Origin: Runella sp.
GTDB taxonomy: Bacteria; Bacteroidota; Bacteroidia; Cytophagales; Spirosomataceae
Reading direction: 5' to 3'
Length of the DNA stretch: 50,948 nt
Assembly (NCBI RefSeq): GCF_027484545.1
Contig: NZ_JAIXST010000063.1
Span: forward strand, 1 to 50,948
The notes under the pieces are model-generated. The model did no database searches. It was given only the letters and a program-made list of their open reading frames with translations, and had not been told where the DNA came from. Positions 23,898 to 30,513 of the stretch are shown here, piece by piece. Positions within the stretch are counted from its first letter, which is position 1. Every line of letters begins with the position of its first letter. A program made the position numbers and the translations under genes.

Positions 23898-24950
23898 CTA
23901 CGGAAGAATTTTGTCAATTACTTTCTCAGCAGTAGCCCGAATGGCGGGAACTGCCACAGAATTTCCAAATTGCTTATAAGCGGAGGCATCGGCAACAACG
24001 ATTTTGAATTCATCAGGGAAGCCCTGCAATCTTGCCCATTCTCTGGGAGTCATTTTTCGGATGCCTTCGCGATTTACTTCTCCTTTTATTTTGGTTTCAG
24101 GGACAAAATTAGTGAGCCTGTGATCGTACACCAAATTTCTTTCACGGCCCATTCCACCCACTACAATGGCATTGGCAATGCCTTCATTCTCAATGATTTC
24201 ATAGCCGAAACCGTTGCCTTTGTTTTCGTGCCTTTGTTTGTGGTTTACTAAAGTGGATAGATACTGAGTGGATAAGTAATATTTGACAGAGACGGGTTCT
24301 GTTTCTTTTACATCTTCAAATGCCACTGGAACTTTACTCGCTTCAGGATAGTCAAACGACGTGATGCCCAAATCGTTGCGAAAGCCAACTATGAAGATAC
24401 GTTCTCGGTTTTGTGGAACTCCAAAATCCTTTGCATTCATTATTTGGGGCTCAGGAACAAAATAACCTAAATCTTCCCGCAGGGTGGCTAAAATGGTTGC
24501 CAGAGTGCGGCCTTTCTCGTGGTTTCGAAGCCCTTTCACATTTTCCAGAAAAAAAGCTTTCGGTTGTTTCTGTTTTATAATCTCAGCTACATCAAAAAAC
24601 AGCGTTCCTCGGGTATCTTCAAACCCCCCGCGACGTCCGGCAATGGAAAATGCTTGGCACGGAAACCCGCCGCATAATACATCAAAGCCGTCGGGAATAT
24701 GTTGCTTGGTCTCTTCTTTTTTAATATCGCCAAAGGGAAGTTCTCCAAAATTGGCTTTGTACGTTTTCTGCGCCTGCTCGTCCCACTCGCTGCTGAAAAC
24801 ACATTCGCCCCCCAAACTTTGAAGGGCCATTCGGAAGCCTCCAATGCCCGCAAAAAGGTCAATAAATGTAAACTTTGGATGAGTTATAGAAGGGAAAGGG
24901 ATATTTTCTACGTTAGAAATTTCACTGTTGACTGTTTCGCTTACTGCCAT
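23898..24950 (-). CDS. C5-cytosine DNA methyltransferase
   Basis: ATG 24950 gives 350 residues (the extended frame would need a TTG start). Motif order is that of Dcm-type enzymes: I FIDLFAGIGGFR (29-40), IV GGFPCQAFS with catalytic Cys98, VI LENVKG (135-140), VIII QNRERIFIVGF, then a target-recognition region of about 100 residues, IX REWARLQGFPDEF, and X YKQFGNSVAVP. No restriction endonuclease is next to it; neighbours are a protease and a DUF1501 gene. It is therefore a solitary methyltransferase, perhaps regulatory or protective. Recognition sequence cannot be read. Confidence 0.95.
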   Translation of the reverse strand: MAVSETVNSEISNVENIPFPSITHPKFTFIDLFAGIGGFRMALQSLGGECVFSSEWDEQAQKTYKANFGELPFGDIKKEETKQHIPDGFDVLCGGFPCQAFSIAGRRGGFEDTRGTLFFDVAEIIKQKQPKAFFLENVKGLRNHEKGRTLATILATLREDLGYFVPEPQIMNAKDFGVPQNRERIFIVGFRNDLGITSFDYPEASKVPVAFEDVKETEPVSVKYYLSTQYLSTLVNHKQRHENKGNGFGYEIIENEGIANAIVVGGMGRERNLVYDHRLTNFVPETKIKGEVNREGIRKMTPREWARLQGFPDEFKIVVADASAYKQFGNSVAVPAIRATAEKVIDKILP

Positions 24951-25003
24951 TGAATCGTCTTTTGCTTTTATTGAAGCAAATATCTGTCTTTTTATCAACT
25001 TTT

Positions 25004-26461
25004 TTACGCTAAAATAGGTCTAACCACTTTTCCGTGCACATCCGTCAGACGATAGCGGCGACCTTGAAATTTAAAGGTAAGTTGTTCGTGGTCAATGCCC
25101 AGCAAGTGCATCACGGTAGCTTGAAAATCGTGAACATGGACAGGGTCACGAACAATATTATAGCTAAAATCATCGGTTTCACCGTGAATGTAGCCTTTCT
25201 TTACACCGGCACCAGCCATCCAAATCGTAAAACAACGCGGATGATGGTCCCGTCCATAGTTCTCTTTAGTAAGCTTGCCCTGTGAGTAAGAACCTCGGCC
25301 AAATTCGCCTCCCCAAACAACGAGGGTATCATCCAATAAACCTCTTTGTTTTAAATCCATCAACAATGCCGCCGAAGGTTGGTCAACGGATTTAGCCATG
25401 ACTTTGATGTCATTGGGTAAATTTCCGTGCTGATCCCAGCCCTGATGATAGAGTTGAATAAATTTAACCCCTTTTTCGGCCAATTTTCTAGCCAATAAGC
25501 AATTGGCGGCAAACGTTCCTGCTTTTTTGGCTTCGGGGCCATACATGTCAAAAATATAGTCAGGCTCTTTGGAAATATCCAGCGTTTCAGGCACGGCAGT
25601 TTGCATTCGATAGGCCATTTCGTACTGCGCCATGCGACTGTTTATTTCGGGGTCAAGTACCTGTTTGTATTGGTCTTGGTGCATTTTGGCCAAGTAATCC
25701 AACATTCGACGACGACTCGTGCGGTCAATACCGGGAGGATTGTTAAGGTAAAATACGGGGTCAGGTCCGGAGCGAAAAACAACTCCCTGATGCACAGATG
25801 GTAAAAAACCATTTGACCATAACTTGGCATAAAGAGGTTGGTCACCTCCTTTTCCTTTGGAGAGTAAAACCACAAAAGCAGGTAAATTTTGATTATCAGA
25901 ACCCAAACCGTAGCTTACCCATGATCCAAAAGAAGGCCGTCCGCCCTGCTGACTGCCCGTTTGAAAAAAGGTAATAGCCGGGTCGTGGTTGATGGCTTCG
26001 GTGTGCATGGAGCGGATAAACGTAGCCTCATCCGTAATTTTAGAAATGTAAGGAAGTATTTCACTGACCCACATCTTGCTTTGGCCTTGTTGGGCGAACT
26101 TGAAAGCCGAAGCAGCCAACGGAAAACTGCTTTGGCCGGCAGTCATTCCCGTAAGGCGCTGCCCTTTACGTACAGATTCGGGCAGTTCTTTGCCCCACAT
26201 TTGTTCCAACTTAGGCTTATAATCAAACAAGTCCAGTTGGGAAGGTGCTCCGCTTTGGTGCAAATAAATCACGCGTTTTACTTTAGGCGCAAAATGCGGT
26301 TTTCCCAATACACCTCCTGTGCTGTTGGCAGCTTGAGCAGAATTATTCCCCAATAACGACGAAAACGCCGCTGCTCCCAACCCCATGCTGGCTTGCGATA
26401 AAAAATTTCGCCGACTCAATTGGTCGTGGGTATGTTGTTCCAGTTCTTCTAATGCGTTCAT
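25004..26461 (-). CDS. DUF1501 family protein with Tat signal
   Basis: A 485-residue exported protein. The start MNALEELEQHTHDQLSRRNFLSQASMGLGAAAF carries a twin-arginine signal. The mature part shows sulfatase/alkaline-phosphatase-like DUF1501 motifs: KRVIYLHQSGAPSQLDLFDYKP, SMHTEAINHDPAITFFQTG, GWDQHGN, VVWGGEFGRGSYSQGK and GRDHHPRCFTIWMAGAGVKKGY. Members pair with PSD1/DUF1549-DUF1553 proteins in Planctomycetes and Bacteroidota. Here that partner lies upstream but is separated by a DUF559 cassette. GGAGGAGG at -12 to -5 from the ATG, part of the cassette's arm, gives it an unusually strong ribosome-binding site for this phylum. Confidence 0.9.
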   Translation of the reverse strand: MNALEELEQHTHDQLSRRNFLSQASMGLGAAAFSSLLGNNSAQAANSTGGVLGKPHFAPKVKRVIYLHQSGAPSQLDLFDYKPKLEQMWGKELPESVRKGQRLTGMTAGQSSFPLAASAFKFAQQGQSKMWVSEILPYISKITDEATFIRSMHTEAINHDPAITFFQTGSQQGGRPSFGSWVSYGLGSDNQNLPAFVVLLSKGKGGDQPLYAKLWSNGFLPSVHQGVVFRSGPDPVFYLNNPPGIDRTSRRRMLDYLAKMHQDQYKQVLDPEINSRMAQYEMAYRMQTAVPETLDISKEPDYIFDMYGPEAKKAGTFAANCLLARKLAEKGVKFIQLYHQGWDQHGNLPNDIKVMAKSVDQPSAALLMDLKQRGLLDDTLVVWGGEFGRGSYSQGKLTKENYGRDHHPRCFTIWMAGAGVKKGYIHGETDDFSYNIVRDPVHVHDFQATVMHLLGIDHEQLTFKFQGRRYRLTDVHGKVVRPILA

Positions 26462-27006
26462 AATGCCTCCTCCCAACCCTCCTCCATGTTGGAGGAGGGC
26501 TTTTTATTTACGTTGGCTCTTTCTCCGAAAGAGTTTTGTATTCAATGATTTTGCTTAACACTGCGTTTATATCTTTTAAAACTTCATCGTTTGAGAATCG
26601 CAGTACTTTTAGCCCCAGTTCTTTAATAAGTGTTTCTCGATATTGATCATATTGAGCCACATCTGACAACTGATGAATGCTCCCATCTAATTCAATGACC
26701 AATTTCAGTTCATGACAATAAAAATCAGCTATAAATTGATGAATGCTATGTTGCCTTCTAAATTTCAAATCGTTTAATTTCCTTCCCCGTAATTGTTCCC
26801 AAAGTACTTTTTCAGCTTCTGTTGCTATTTTTCGTAAATGTGCAGCATTTTGAAAAGTACTTGCTTTAGCCTGATGAAAAAAAGGATAGTCCTGAGGTCT
26901 GGCAGGTTTTGAAGCATCTTCCATCGTAGCTAAATTCTTCAATTTTTAAACATAACCTATTACACTCCTTCTCCATTTTGGAGAAGGGGCAGGGGATGAG
27001 GCATTA
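26461..27006 (-). mobile_element. putative DUF559 cassette with hairpin-bearing terminal inverted repeats
   Basis: A 546-base unit lies between the stop of the PSD1 gene and the start of DUF1501. Its left end begins TAATGCCTCCTCCC and its right end, read in reverse complement, begins TAATGCCTCATCCC. The match runs on imperfectly for about 42 bases. Each arm contains a stem with a three-base loop: CCCTCCTCCA / TGGAGGAGGG (26477-26499) and CCTTCTCCA / TGGAGAAGG (26967-26987). One nuclease-fold gene fills the interior. The left TIR overlaps the ATG of DUF1501 and the right one the TAA of PSD1. Mobility is an inference; no clear target duplication is visible. Confidence 0.6.
26508..26924 (-). CDS. 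DUF559 (Vsr-like fold) putative endonuclease
   Basis: A 138-residue protein from ATG 26924 (a TTG six codons upstream is also open). The core TEAEKVLWEQLRGRKLNDLKFRRQHSIHQFIADFYCHELKLVIELDGSIHQLSDVAQYDQYRETLIKELGLKVLRFSNDEVLKDI is the DUF559 signature, related to very-short-patch-repair and PD-(D/E)XK nucleases. Asp67, Glu78 and the following Asp80 with His84 are candidate metal-binding residues. It is flanked on both sides by hairpin-bearing inverted repeats. DNA nicking is suggested by fold only. Confidence 0.88.
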   Translation of the reverse strand: MEDASKPARPQDYPFFHQAKASTFQNAAHLRKIATEAEKVLWEQLRGRKLNDLKFRRQHSIHQFIADFYCHELKLVIELDGSIHQLSDVAQYDQYRETLIKELGLKVLRFSNDEVLKDINAVLSKIIEYKTLSEKEPT

Positions 27007-30000
27007 CCGCTTTATCACAAACTCATCAAAATTCATAATCGTACTTGCCACTATCGTCATGGCTGCCAATTCATTTTTATTCAATGACTTATCCACAGGA
27101 TATTCACCTACACTCAATAATTCATCAGCTCGTTTGGGGTTCTTTGTAAAATCTTGGTATTCCTCCTGGTACAACTGCGTCATGGCTTCCAACTCGCTTT
27201 GTCGCGGCGGGCGCGACGTGAGTGAGTTGAAAATATAATTTATGGAATGTCGAGGGTCAAATGCAGATTGTCGAATCGGATTCTTTACTTCGACATTCTG
27301 CATTTTGCCTTCGACACTTTTCTGTGCCAAAACTCGGGCTGCTTCTACAAATTGCGGGTCGTTGAGGGTAACGAGGGCTTGGAGCGGGGTGCTGGTTTTT
27401 TGACGACGTACACTGCAAAAATGCCGCTCGGAAGCATCAAAGTTGAGCATCATGGGTGGGGGCGAACTTCGCTTCCAAATCGTGTACATACTCCGACGAT
27501 ATAGTGTATCGCCATGATTTTGAACGTATTGTACTGCATTTCGAGTAGCCAATGCTTCCCAAATGCCGTCGGGTTGATAAGGATGAACACTGGGCCCGCC
27601 AATTTTTGAACTCAAAAGGCCACTTGCCGCCAAGGCTGCATCCCGTACCTGTTCGGCCGAAATTCGATAGCTGGGTCCACGGGCATACAACGCATTATTG
27701 GGGTCTAATTCACGGAGTTTATCATCACAAACCGACGATTGCCGATACGTAGCCGACATTACGATGTACTTTTGCAGGGCTTTATAATTCCAACCCGACT
27801 CACGAAATTTGACAGCTAAGTAATCCAGTAATTCGAGGTGAGTGGGCAAATCTCCCTGATTGCCAAAGTCTTCCGCTGATACTACTAAGCCTTTTCCGAA
27901 GTAGCGCTGCCACATTCGGTTGACCATTACTCGCGCAAAAAGTGGGTTTTCTTCGTGAATAAGCCATTTTGCCAAGCCAAGGCGATTGCGCGGTAAATCT
28001 TTCGGAATCTTAAAAAATTGGTCAGGCGTGTCAGCCGTTACTTCTTGGTCCTGTGCGTCATAAGCACCGCGTTTGAGGATAAATGCCTTACGCGGATACT
28101 TGCGTTCCCGCATGACCATTACGTCAATTTCTTTGTTCAAAACGTCAGTTTCTTCTTTCAGAAGTTGCTTCCGCTCGGCCAGCAGTTTTTGATTTTTTGG
28201 GTCTATATTGGTAGTAAAATAGTCGAAAAGGCTTTCTTTTTGGAAATCGGTACGTTTATCAGCTGGCGTTTTTAGCGCTGTTTTTACAAAATCTTTTTGC
28301 CCAATCACACTGTGAACTTCCAACGGAGTCAGTTCGCGCGCAAAGACTTTCAATTCATCAACCGCATAGCCTTTGTAATTGTAGTCGTGCCGTTGACCAA
28401 TCGAAAAGTTAGGCGCACCTGCTCCCCAATTGGTATGATTTTTACCCCAAAGTATACTTTCCCGTAATCCATCCGACATCACTCTTCCCGTAGCCCGTTG
28501 CCCATTAATATAAATTTTTAGCCCGTTTGCTTTGCTTGAACCATCGTAAGCCATCGTTATATGTGCCCAACGGTTAAGTTTGAGTACATAGTCTGTTTCA
28601 AAATCAATGGCATTATCGGGCCAAACGTTGCTTATTCTGAAAGCCAAATGACCATCTTCCAATCGCTCACATTCATAGCCTCTAAAGCCATTGAATGGGC
28701 CCAAGTTTCGGTTAAACAGCGGCCCTTTAAATTTGGGGTCAAGTAAACCTACCCACAAACTCACGGTAAAAGGTTGATTTCGTTCAAAAAAGCCCGAGAT
28801 AGTAGGTACTTCTTTGTACTGCCCCCAACCATTGATACCTCGTATTTGCATAAAACTTTCTCCTACCAGCCGCACTCCTTTGCCACGCGGGCTTTTGATT
28901 CGAACGGGCAGAAAATCCAAATCACCGTTGGTTTCAAAATTCAGCGTATCATTGGCTAAATTCTTGAAAATCGGTCGTTTTTTATCTTTTTTCTCCCCCG
29001 CCATTCGTATATCCATCGAATCAAAAGGAACGTCAATGACTAAAGCAGATTGAGGAGAAATTAGCGGTGCTTTATCGGCTTTGGCTACCCATTGTTCAAA
29101 CCGTTGACGTAATGCGGTGGCTTCTTTCAGTTGACTTTTAGTAACATCTGACAAATTTTCTTTGATGAATCGCAGTTGCTTTTCGGCTTCGGGTTTAGGA
29201 AGCGTAACCGTTGGACTGGGTTCGCCGTTGTAAGGAATTTGGCCGTATTCGTTGTTATTGTTAAAAAACGCAAACAGCGAATAATAATCTTTTTGACTGA
29301 TGGGGTCATATTTGTGGTCGTGACAGCGTGCACATTCGACCGTAAGCCCTAAAAAGGCTTTTCCGAAAGTATTGGTCCGGTCGGCAATGTACTCTACAAA
29401 ATATTCCTGCGGAACAATCCCGCCTTCCTGACTTTGTTGGTGATTTCTGTTGAAAGCCGTGGCTATCAAATGTTCTTTTTGAGGATTAGGCAACATATCG
29501 CCCGCTAATTGCCAAGTAACGAAGCGGTCAAACGCCAAATTTCGATTAAAAGACTTAATGACCCAATCGCGGTAAGGCCACATCGTGCGCAGACCGTCAT
29601 CCTGATAACCGTGAGTGTCGGCATAACGCGCTATATCCAGCCAATCTGCTGCTTGATGTTCGCCAAAATGGGTGTTTTGTAGTAATTGGTTGACTACTTT
29701 TTCGTACGCATTGGGAGAAGTGTCTTTCAGGAAAGCCTCTACCTGTTCGGCAGTAGGGGGGAGCCCAATCAAGTCCAGATAGACACGCCGTAATAGCGTA
29801 GTTTTTTGTGTCTCAGACTGCGGTTTCAGGCTTTTATCTTCTATTTTTTTGAGTACAAAACGATCAATGTCATTTTTAACCCAAGCTTCATTTTTGACTT
29901 TGGGTAATTTGGGCTTAACAGGTGCTACAAACGACCAATGCGGTTTATATTCAGCACCTTGCTCAATCCATTTGATAAGCGTTGCTTTTTCTTCGGCCGA

Positions 30001-30372
30001 CAGTGTCAGGTGGGTCGAAGGTTCAGGCATTACGTAATCGGGGTCTTCTGATAAAATACGGTGAACGAGGTCGCTTTGGGCAGGGTTGCCTTTTACAATG
30101 GCTTTTAGGCCACTCTCGCATTTTTTATCGTATGCCGCATCGGCGATATCCAAACGTAAATCGGCCTTTTGTTTGTTCTTATCAGGCCCGTGGCAGGCAA
30201 AACATCTATCTGATAAAATTGGCTTTACGTGGAGGTTATAGTCCACCTTTTCGGGCAAGGTAGCCGTCGCTTTTTGTACATCCAGAGGCAAATCAATGCT
30301 GCCTCCGCAGGCGCTTAGCATTGCCGCTGACACTACCCATACACTCCAATTACAGAAGACACGCTTTTTCAT
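27004..30372 (-). CDS. PSD1 / DUF1549-DUF1553 lipoprotein with cytochrome and LamG-like domains
   Basis: A protein of about 1122 residues from ATG 30372. It has a signal ending LSAC (lipobox), then a planctomycete-type cytochrome C domain (CFACHGPDKNKQKADLRLD) and DUF1549 (DIDRFVLKKIEDKSLKPQ...RRVYLDLIGLPPT). A concanavalin/LamG-like region sits in the middle (FTVSLWVGLLDPKFKGPLF, ANGLKIYINGQRATG), and DUF1553 is at the C-terminus (NRMWQRYFGKGLV, MLNFDASERHFCSVRRQKTSTPLQALVTLNDPQFVEAARVLA). In Planctomycetes such proteins pair with DUF1501 and are linked to breakdown of complex sulfated glycans. Biochemical role is unproven. A second haem-like site CARCHDHK lies near residue 350. Confidence 0.92.
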   Translation of the reverse strand: MKKRVFCNWSVWVVSAAMLSACGGSIDLPLDVQKATATLPEKVDYNLHVKPILSDRCFACHGPDKNKQKADLRLDIADAAYDKKCESGLKAIVKGNPAQSDLVHRILSEDPDYVMPEPSTHLTLSAEEKATLIKWIEQGAEYKPHWSFVAPVKPKLPKVKNEAWVKNDIDRFVLKKIEDKSLKPQSETQKTTLLRRVYLDLIGLPPTAEQVEAFLKDTSPNAYEKVVNQLLQNTHFGEHQAADWLDIARYADTHGYQDDGLRTMWPYRDWVIKSFNRNLAFDRFVTWQLAGDMLPNPQKEHLIATAFNRNHQQSQEGGIVPQEYFVEYIADRTNTFGKAFLGLTVECARCHDHKYDPISQKDYYSLFAFFNNNNEYGQIPYNGEPSPTVTLPKPEAEKQLRFIKENLSDVTKSQLKEATALRQRFEQWVAKADKAPLISPQSALVIDVPFDSMDIRMAGEKKDKKRPIFKNLANDTLNFETNGDLDFLPVRIKSPRGKGVRLVGESFMQIRGINGWGQYKEVPTISGFFERNQPFTVSLWVGLLDPKFKGPLFNRNLGPFNGFRGYECERLEDGHLAFRISNVWPDNAIDFETDYVLKLNRWAHITMAYDGSSKANGLKIYINGQRATGRVMSDGLRESILWGKNHTNWGAGAPNFSIGQRHDYNYKGYAVDELKVFARELTPLEVHSVIGQKDFVKTALKTPADKRTDFQKESLFDYFTTNIDPKNQKLLAERKQLLKEETDVLNKEIDVMVMRERKYPRKAFILKRGAYDAQDQEVTADTPDQFFKIPKDLPRNRLGLAKWLIHEENPLFARVMVNRMWQRYFGKGLVVSAEDFGNQGDLPTHLELLDYLAVKFRESGWNYKALQKYIVMSATYRQSSVCDDKLRELDPNNALYARGPSYRISAEQVRDAALAASGLLSSKIGGPSVHPYQPDGIWEALATRNAVQYVQNHGDTLYRRSMYTIWKRSSPPPMMLNFDASERHFCSVRRQKTSTPLQALVTLNDPQFVEAARVLAQKSVEGKMQNVEVKNPIRQSAFDPRHSINYIFNSLTSRPPRQSELEAMTQLYQEEYQDFTKNPKRADELLSVGEYPVDKSLNKNELAAMTIVASTIMNFDEFVIKR

Positions 30373-30513
30373 TTTACAATACAAATACGGTTAACAAAAC
30401 CACTTATTATAAAAAGTTGGCAGTATGGTAAATATACTGAAAAATGGGCAAAAAATATTACTCAACGAGCAAGTATCGTTCTGTTGTTTGTGTACTTTAT
30501 TTGAGCGAAGTTG

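Follow-up and report, generated by a model that had tools for sequence, protein, structure and literature searches.

The window analysed here, the whole 50,948-nucleotide stretch from Runella sp., is contig C55 of the 7.12 Mb genome G000 (G and L numbers designate genomes and loci). It contains a cassette between two minus-strand genes, which Pfam identified as PSD1/PSCyt (E 4.2e-98) and DUF1501 (E 4.5e-154) (Table 1). The only gene of the cassette is DUF559 (PF04480, E 3.5e-35; MTES_1575 also matched, below its cut-off), and it retains its own stop codon. A repeat finder returned one pair of repeats at the cassette ends (14 nt, 93%), in inverted and not direct orientation. Both ends open with TAATGCCTC[C/A]TCCC and each holds a 9-10-bp hairpin further inside. 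Folded as DNA, 0 of 200 shuffled sequences equalled the stability of the left hairpin, and 1 of 200 that of the right one. The repeat finder, folding and Pfam results thus agree with the original prediction of a single-gene DUF559 cassette with inverted, hairpin-bearing ends. Ends of this kind are referred to below as arms.

Table 1. Position of the cassette, its parts and the two genes that flank it in the window.
Feature	Position	Strand	Remark
Cassette, 546-base unit	26461-27006		between PSD1 and DUF1501
Left terminal inverted repeat TAATGCCTCCTCCC	26461..26474	+	first base within DUF1501 start codon
Left hairpin CCCTCCTCCA/TGGAGGAGGG, 10-bp stem	26477..26499	+	DNA fold z -4.56
DUF559 ORF, 144 aa from TTG (possible ATG at 26924)	26508..26942	-	domain 26541-26855
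Right hairpin CCTTCTCCA/TGGAGAAGG, 9-bp stem	26967..26987	-	DNA fold z -4.46
Right terminal inverted repeat TAATGCCTCATCCC	26993..27006	-	its TAA is the PSD1 stop codon
PSCyt1/PSCyt2/PSD1, upstream host gene	27004..30384	-	
DUF1501, downstream host gene	25004..26461	-	ATG start at 26461

The window cassette is a discrete insertion between otherwise contiguous genes. The empty sites that the original prediction had proposed to seek in relatives exist: in five other Runella genomes (G012, G011, G009, G006, G008) the PSD1/DUF1501 junction shows no trace of the cassette. The empty junction reads AAGAGATGAAAAACGC, in which the TGA of PSD1 overlaps the ATG of DUF1501; the idea that TAATG at the PSD1 end preserves the old stop-start overlap is therefore wrong. 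The cassette occupies the identical junction in G000, G003 and G002. The spacer between the two genes is longer in G018, which belongs to another genus, and the upstream sequence is different in G005. No target-site duplication was visible at PSD1/DUF1501, where the junction bases also differ between species.

Occupancy of this site departs from the host tree. The carriers do not form one clade on a DUF1501 DNA tree of ten genomes (3 changes, approximately unbiased (AU) test p 2.3e-5). Moreover, the closest nuclease pair is not the closest host pair: DNA identity between the DUF559 copies at this junction is 0.798 for G000-G002 and 0.754 for G002-G003, whereas that of DUF1501 is 0.815 and 0.870, respectively. 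The scatter of the carriers and this disagreement indicate that the site was filled repeatedly, exchanged between species or precisely emptied several times, and each of these three histories amounts to some movement.

DUF559 was surveyed in 59 relatives, a 296-genome phylum sample, a 240-genome Alphaproteobacteria sample and named loci (80 kept of 577 found). It was present in 29/59 relatives, 170/296 genomes of the phylum sample and 77/240 of the Alphaproteobacteria sample. Arms were scored by matching the 300 nt to the left of the domain against the reverse complement of the 300 nt to its right and taking the best local match, with a threshold of 17 (the 99th percentile of 664 same-locus windows). 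The window cassette scored 18.5, above that percentile (17.0), but it reached only the 95th percentile (18.5) of pairings of a left flank with a right flank from another DUF559 locus, since the arm motif is common to such flanks. The case for arms at the window cassette thus rests on the whole DUF559 family and not on this single copy. Indeed, 77 of 112 DUF559 loci (114 less 2 with short flanks) exceeded the 99th percentile, as against 53 of 666 mismatched flanks from different loci. Among the named loci 52/79 were above the threshold, and 22/34 outside Bacteroidota and its sisters. A score above 17 was reached by 126 of 186 DUF559 loci and by 10 of 362 gene-centred controls. In six genomes to which named loci had led (Alphaproteobacteria, Planktothrix, Chloroflexi, Gallionella, Methylomonas and Brocadiaceae), 16 of the 19 strong copies passed, out of 23 rows.

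The common arm consists of a tail, CC[CT]CA[CT]CCC, followed by a hairpin, CCCTCTCC..GGAGAGGG. A closely similar form was found in Chloroflexi, Pseudomonadota, Planktothrix, Planctomycetota, Verrucomicrobia, Armatimonadetes and Turneriella, many of these being metagenome-assembled genomes (MAGs). The window-type arm, TGCCTCMTCCCN{1,4}CCYT, is nearly private, with 3 matches in G000, 2 of them at the cassette; a wider half-arm pattern had 20 matches in this genome. Nested in the arm tails of L299, L304, L312, L279, L287, L177, L086 and L082 is a tiny GC-rich palindrome of 14-18 nt (GACGGTCGGCCGCTGCCG or GCGCGGCGTACCGTC type), seen by eye in several genomes, which is a second, smaller repeat family.

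Arms and nuclease occur together and co-vary, as a correlation. A random placement of arms relative to DUF559, which had been envisaged as an objection to the original prediction, was not found: half-arm matches were 37 times denser near DUF559 (95 in 131 kb) than away from it (19 in 978 kb). In the phylum sample, the pattern CCTCAYCCCN{1,5}CCYTCTCC gave 500 matches in 70/296 genomes and its reversed-pattern control 2. It was present in 52 of the 126 genomes with strong DUF559 (E <= 1e-15) and in 18 of the 170 without (Fisher p 1e-9). The same pattern showed no significant tie to the Y1 transposase (PF01797; 55/210 vs 15/86, odds ratio (OR) 1.7, p 0.13). The association with DUF559 holds in genomes with Y1 (OR 6.9) and in those without (OR 3.9, p 0.04), and Y1 was without effect within DUF559 strata. 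Arm similarity also rises with DUF559 identity (Mantel rho 0.31, p 0.001, 125 elements, 7733 pairs; rho 0.29 for pairs under 60% identity). The top arm load of the phylum sample was that of G329, with 111 half-arm matches and one DUF559 match.

Arms were also present without the nuclease. We fetched ten such places in G000, covering 12 of the 20 matches. By a fixed pattern, five of the ten are doublets of 79-97 bases, with two tail-outward arms and a short spacer; two others resemble doublets that have degenerated, and the remaining three consist of one arm each. Their locations are intergenic and, in L282 and L286, within open frames of 484 and 707 amino acids. One arm doublet was checked and proved stop-free in 4 of 6 frames. 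As the cassette is a discrete insertion, its arms are tied to DUF559 and DUF559-less arm pairs resemble doublets of repetitive extragenic palindromes (REPs), the comparison with TnpA-REP elements drawn in the original prediction is apt as logic. It does not follow that every solo doublet is a DUF559 product, a view we dropped since many lie inside larger repeats resembling miniature inverted-repeat transposable elements (MITEs) in G004, G005 and G010. At L309-L312 (G005) and L297-L308 (G004), many doublets sit in the middle of such a repeat, whose outer inverted ends are for example CTCTGACAATTTTTGTGG / CCACAAAAATTGTCAGAG.

Two results go beyond the original prediction: many relatives of the cassette are in-frame insertions in conserved genes, and the enzyme is related to a homing endonuclease. 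G000 holds four DUF559 matches, the window cassette included. One is part of a large protein, helicase-like by eye; the other two are in frame within conserved genes, namely MnmE and the junction of two 3-oxoacid CoA-transferase parts. Host genes were named by Pfam, by match to known pieces or by eye. In the relatives they are UvrA (G001, G004), MetH (G018; twice in G019), IleRS (G036), LeuRS (G054, G055), MnmE (G010, G008, G005, G036) and restriction-modification genes. The named loci, from many phyla and scanned at two Pfam cut-offs, added hosts such as MetH (Stagnimonas, Chloroflexi), MetRS (Gallionella), ValRS (Anaerolineales), a Mur ligase, a DEAH-type helicase, HsdR and N6-methylases. 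Sense frames of more than 300 amino acids enclose 80 of 189 pooled copies, and other frames of such size span the domain in 0 of 189; among the 80 are genuine multi-domain proteins whose DUF559 scores are weak (such as G006 and G011:C12) and frames with DUF559 at one end. All of the 40 long frames that we picked from these 80 for a Pfam scan contain DUF559 and a domain of another gene on one or both sides, among them LeuRS, IleRS, ValRS, MnmE, MetH, UvrA, HsdR and HsdM. Where the edges of in-frame copies were read, the arm peptides are P/S/G/R-rich.

The interrupted LeuRS (G054, G055, G136, G110, G159) and IleRS (G036) are the only close copy in each genome, other synthetase matches in these six genomes being only 27-33% identical. 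Therefore the enzyme works with the insert, or the insert gets removed; presumably it is retained in the mature host protein.

Some frames have a less usual composition. In L067 (G019), one MetH frame of 1645 amino acids contains two separate DUF559 elements at two sites. In five Pedobacter loci (L233, L256, L257, L262, L268) and in L168 (G315), an in-frame fusion joins DUF559 to the beginning of HisF, as identified by Pfam for L168 and by sequence for the other five; C-rich arms are above threshold in 5 of the 6. In L232, from an Alphaproteobacteria MAG, the frame joins the end of a YkuD L,D-transpeptidase, DUF559 and an S-adenosylhomocysteine hydrolase, which are not one split gene; it seems that the element has brought two genes into a single frame. 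Finally, L195 (G012) has an unrelated in-frame IleRS insert of about 120 amino acids, with no DUF559 or visible arms, near the position of DUF559 in the IleRS of G036.

Several host sites were shared between genomes and could be compared as alleles. In MnmE, the loop after NKADLT was readable in 12 of 13 Runella genomes (not seen in G002). It contains the full element in G000, G008, G010 and G005, in-frame arms only in G012 and G006, a collapsed single palindrome of the type AACCTCACC..GGTGAGGTT in G001, G004 and G007, and no trace in G009, G011 and G003. G012 keeps its arms though it has zero DUF559 matches genome-wide, and in G008 and G010 an arm doublet lies on each side of the DUF559 part. 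At the CoA-transferase site, G000 and G010 have the full element, whereas the sequence in G001, G004 and G007 is palindrome-like and without DUF559. At the UvrA site, the full element is present in G001 and G004, and G000, G002, G007, G009 and G010 are DUF559-free. On a tree of 186 DUF559 domains, of which 38 have a host-site label and which has few columns and many open forks, copies group by insertion site (9 changes, shuffled mean 25.8, 0/200 as low). For each of the HsdR, HsdM, MnmE, HisF, UvrA and CoA-transferase sites and for one LeuRS site, a single branch separates its copies from all others.

The enzyme itself has 12 invariant residues across 45 aligned copies, in-frame copies included. 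Twelve pairs were compared for the ratio of nonsynonymous to synonymous substitutions (dN/dS); dS was saturated in 8, leaving 4 usable: the UvrA pair (0.095), the CoA-transferase pair (0.149) and two PSD1-site pairs (0.068 and 0.049, dS >1). The range of 0.05-0.15 in these pairs points to purifying selection on DUF559. Its profile matches the PDB entries 3hrl, 'Endonuclease-Like Protein' (E 1.2e-34), and 3r3p, 'Mobile intron protein' (3r3p_A, E 3.4e-6), the latter of which we take to be the homing endonuclease I-Bth0305I. The window DUF559 presumably has a Vsr-like nuclease fold, in agreement with the sequence match to 3r3p.

The surroundings of the enzyme were also examined. No group I or II intron RNA around DUF559 reached the Rfam gathering score in 12 loci (69469 bases). 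Likewise, no intein or Hint family appeared at E <= 0.001 in the Pfam matches of 40 host ORFs, where weak inteins could escape; inteins as a general rule were thus set aside. The single exception is L333 (Planktothrix), a copy inside an intein of a DNA methyltransferase, with CLRKGTKIL at the N-edge, a TADHRV block and VHN/C at the C-edge. Intein_splicing matched at E 4e-5, below its cut-off, and TIGR01443 at E 1.3e-4, above its cut-off. DUF559 there occupies the place where inteins keep their homing endonuclease. An anti-phage system was considered and rejected, PADLOC giving only weak partial matches for 3 proteins. Matches to PHROG phage families were weak, an HNH and a homing endonuclease family among them. 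As regards spread by plasmids, 39 of 72,556 plasmid records contain a relative.

Altogether, we favour the reading that the cassette belongs to a family of mobile elements in which a homing-endonuclease-type nuclease (DUF559, EDxHD/Vsr fold) lies between inverted REP-like ends, the nuclease cutting and repair copying the element; we would give this a probability of about 0.6. The family displays discrete insertion, empty and arms-only alleles, patchy same-site occupancy and in-frame persistence in conserved genes. At each end of an element, a C-rich tail (type CCTCACCCC) would precede a short hairpin. The nuclease would recognise its own arms, arm-like palindromes or the empty site and cut there; repair of the break would then copy the element, or the two arms alone, into the cut by homing, and it is in this way that the nuclease may move the arms. 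In coding sequence, selection would spare only in-frame, stop-free copies, which stop-poor arms would make easier to obtain, and the host enzyme would thereby gain the nuclease as an additional domain. Where it lies between genes, as in the window, the nuclease keeps its own stop codon.

A number of observations weigh against this reading. DUF559 without arms, which had been raised in advance as an objection, does occur: 60 of 186 copies have no significant arms. In GC-rich Alphaproteobacteria 20 of 29 loci pass the threshold, yet so do 20 of 173 controls. The outermost half-arm is tail-outward in 58 cases and tail-inward in 28, and tail-outward at both ends in 10 elements. Among the genomes with strong DUF559, 74/126 are without the arm subtype searched for; conversely, 18 of the 70 arm-pattern genomes have no strong DUF559, including G080 with 22 matches, and G020 has 15 arm matches and no DUF559. 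Most of 20 solo copies from G004, G005 and G010 are embedded in larger MITE-like repeats that have outer ends of their own, and part of the arm copy number therefore need not be the work of DUF559. The MnmE copies are only somewhat more diverged than the host gene, which is compatible with vertical descent. On the DUF559 tree, 3 changes are required for MetH, whose sites vary from phylum to phylum, and 2 for the other LeuRS site; site fidelity is thus imperfect. Related genomes are not independent, and the Fisher and Mantel values therefore overstate certainty. Transposition and cleavage were not observed, and that the nuclease gives the arms their mobility is what we infer.

The arm-bearing genomes without strong DUF559 (18/70) and the MITE-like units of G004 and G005, with their own outer inverted repeats, would be expected if DUF559 were a passenger, carried between two copies of REP- or MITE-like palindromic arms that another enzyme moves. 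We consider this unlikely, because the arms are not tied to Y1_Tnp (p 0.13), the sole transposase family compared, and the DUF559 effect persists with and without it; mobilisation by RAYT as the main driver is rejected on the same ground. Furthermore, the arms co-vary with the DUF559 sequence, and the same small gene family lies between arms in several phyla. Less likely still is that there is no element, the palindromes being recombination or breakage hot spots where DUF559 and hairpins gather by horizontal transfer and illegitimate repair. Several doublets are indeed central within longer inverted repeats, the UvrA site of G000 has a native short palindrome, AACCCCACTGAAGGGGTT, and PSD1/DUF1501 lacks a visible target duplication; against this, matching arms stand inverted at both ends, empty and arms-only alleles are exact, and DUF559 clades follow sites. 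Finally, DUF559 is very improbably a host repair or defence nuclease (Vsr-like) beside hairpins that act as ordinary terminators or stabilise mRNA: restriction-modification genes account for several of the hosts and, according to passages of PMC12907096, Caulobacter cells without a cytosine methylase depend on the DUF559 protein VsrA for their DNA-damage response, but DUF559 is found in just 29/59 relatives and at differing places, unlike a core repair gene, hairpins lie in open frames of single-copy LeuRS and IleRS, where terminators do not sit, and the T after the left window hairpin is on the strand opposite to the gene.

The window also contains, at 23898-24998 and just downstream of DUF1501, a gene for a C5-cytosine DNA methylase (Pfam). 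Vsr-like nucleases are functionally tied to such methylases. The cassette is an insertion here, however, and the link of this gene to DUF559 may be due to chance.

If the homing-type mobile element is accepted, a wider proposal can be made, although we hold it with less than even confidence. The elements would represent a class of selfish DNA in about 10 bacterial phyla (by record labels), in which a homing-type nuclease with translatable REP-like hairpin ends invades essential coding sequence in frame, persists as a retained additional domain in MnmE, MetH, UvrA and the single-copy LeuRS and IleRS, and sheds arms-only palindromes. No description of DUF559 with hairpin arms or as in-frame elements was found in the literature searched, whose coverage excluded preprints and most subscription papers, and this kind of selfish DNA is apparently undescribed. 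Some 'DUF559-fused' enzymes in databases would then be host enzymes with an element and not new domain architectures. The proposal raises the question of how a nuclease domain sits in an essential tRNA synthetase without killing the cell, and the element, with a protein of about 140 amino acids and a 45-nt hairpin, is compact enough for testing.

We have filed the element with homing-endonuclease-type selfish elements; the enzyme expected of a REPtron was not the one found, and intein or intron splicing was not found outside one copy. The REPtrons of RAYT/TnpA-REP systems and REPINs are alike in having one gene between inverted palindromic units (unpaired tail and hairpin), with gene-less doublets elsewhere. 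Passages of PMC3733652 place REPs inside uvrA, recBCD and tRNA-synthetase genes, where they code for amino acids, and list CCTC as a variant of the CGTC tag. The present elements differ from REPtrons in that the cassette carries DUF559 instead of an HUH Y1 transposase (PF01797), the tail is CCTCACCCC-like (CCTCA[CT]CCC-like) without a GTAG or CGTC tag, host genes are read in frame through the nuclease gene itself, and the arms track DUF559 and not Y1_Tnp. A link to CGTC REPs was not supported, as 29 alphaproteobacterial loci gave 0 CGTCATTCC near DUF559 and 0 far from it.

With EDxHD homing endonucleases (I-Bth0305I), the likeness lies in the sequence homology of DUF559 to PDB 3r3p and in a same-site occupancy that departs from the host tree. 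In passages of PMC9403480, DUF559 is assigned to EDxHD in the context of Thermosynechococcus inteins. Unlike homing endonuclease genes, the DUF559 elements come without intron RNA (12 loci) or a splicing family (40 ORFs) and have hairpin-armed ends. Inteins share the in-frame insertion with an endonuclease, and in the Planktothrix intein DUF559 takes the place of the endonuclease; the other copies differ by their P/S/G/R-rich arm peptides at the edges and have no Pfam splicing family (40 scanned). Rickettsia palindromic elements (RPEs), to our knowledge, are about 150 bp long and carry no enzyme. By description they are similar in being palindromic, open-frame, in-frame insertions, whereas DUF559 elements include a nuclease domain and have arms-only derivatives. 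Passages of PMC10969869 describe RPEs as palindromic, translatable and in frame within metabolic genes. If our proposal is true, the shedding of arms-only palindromes would identify an enzyme from which palindromic in-frame repeats like RPEs could originate.

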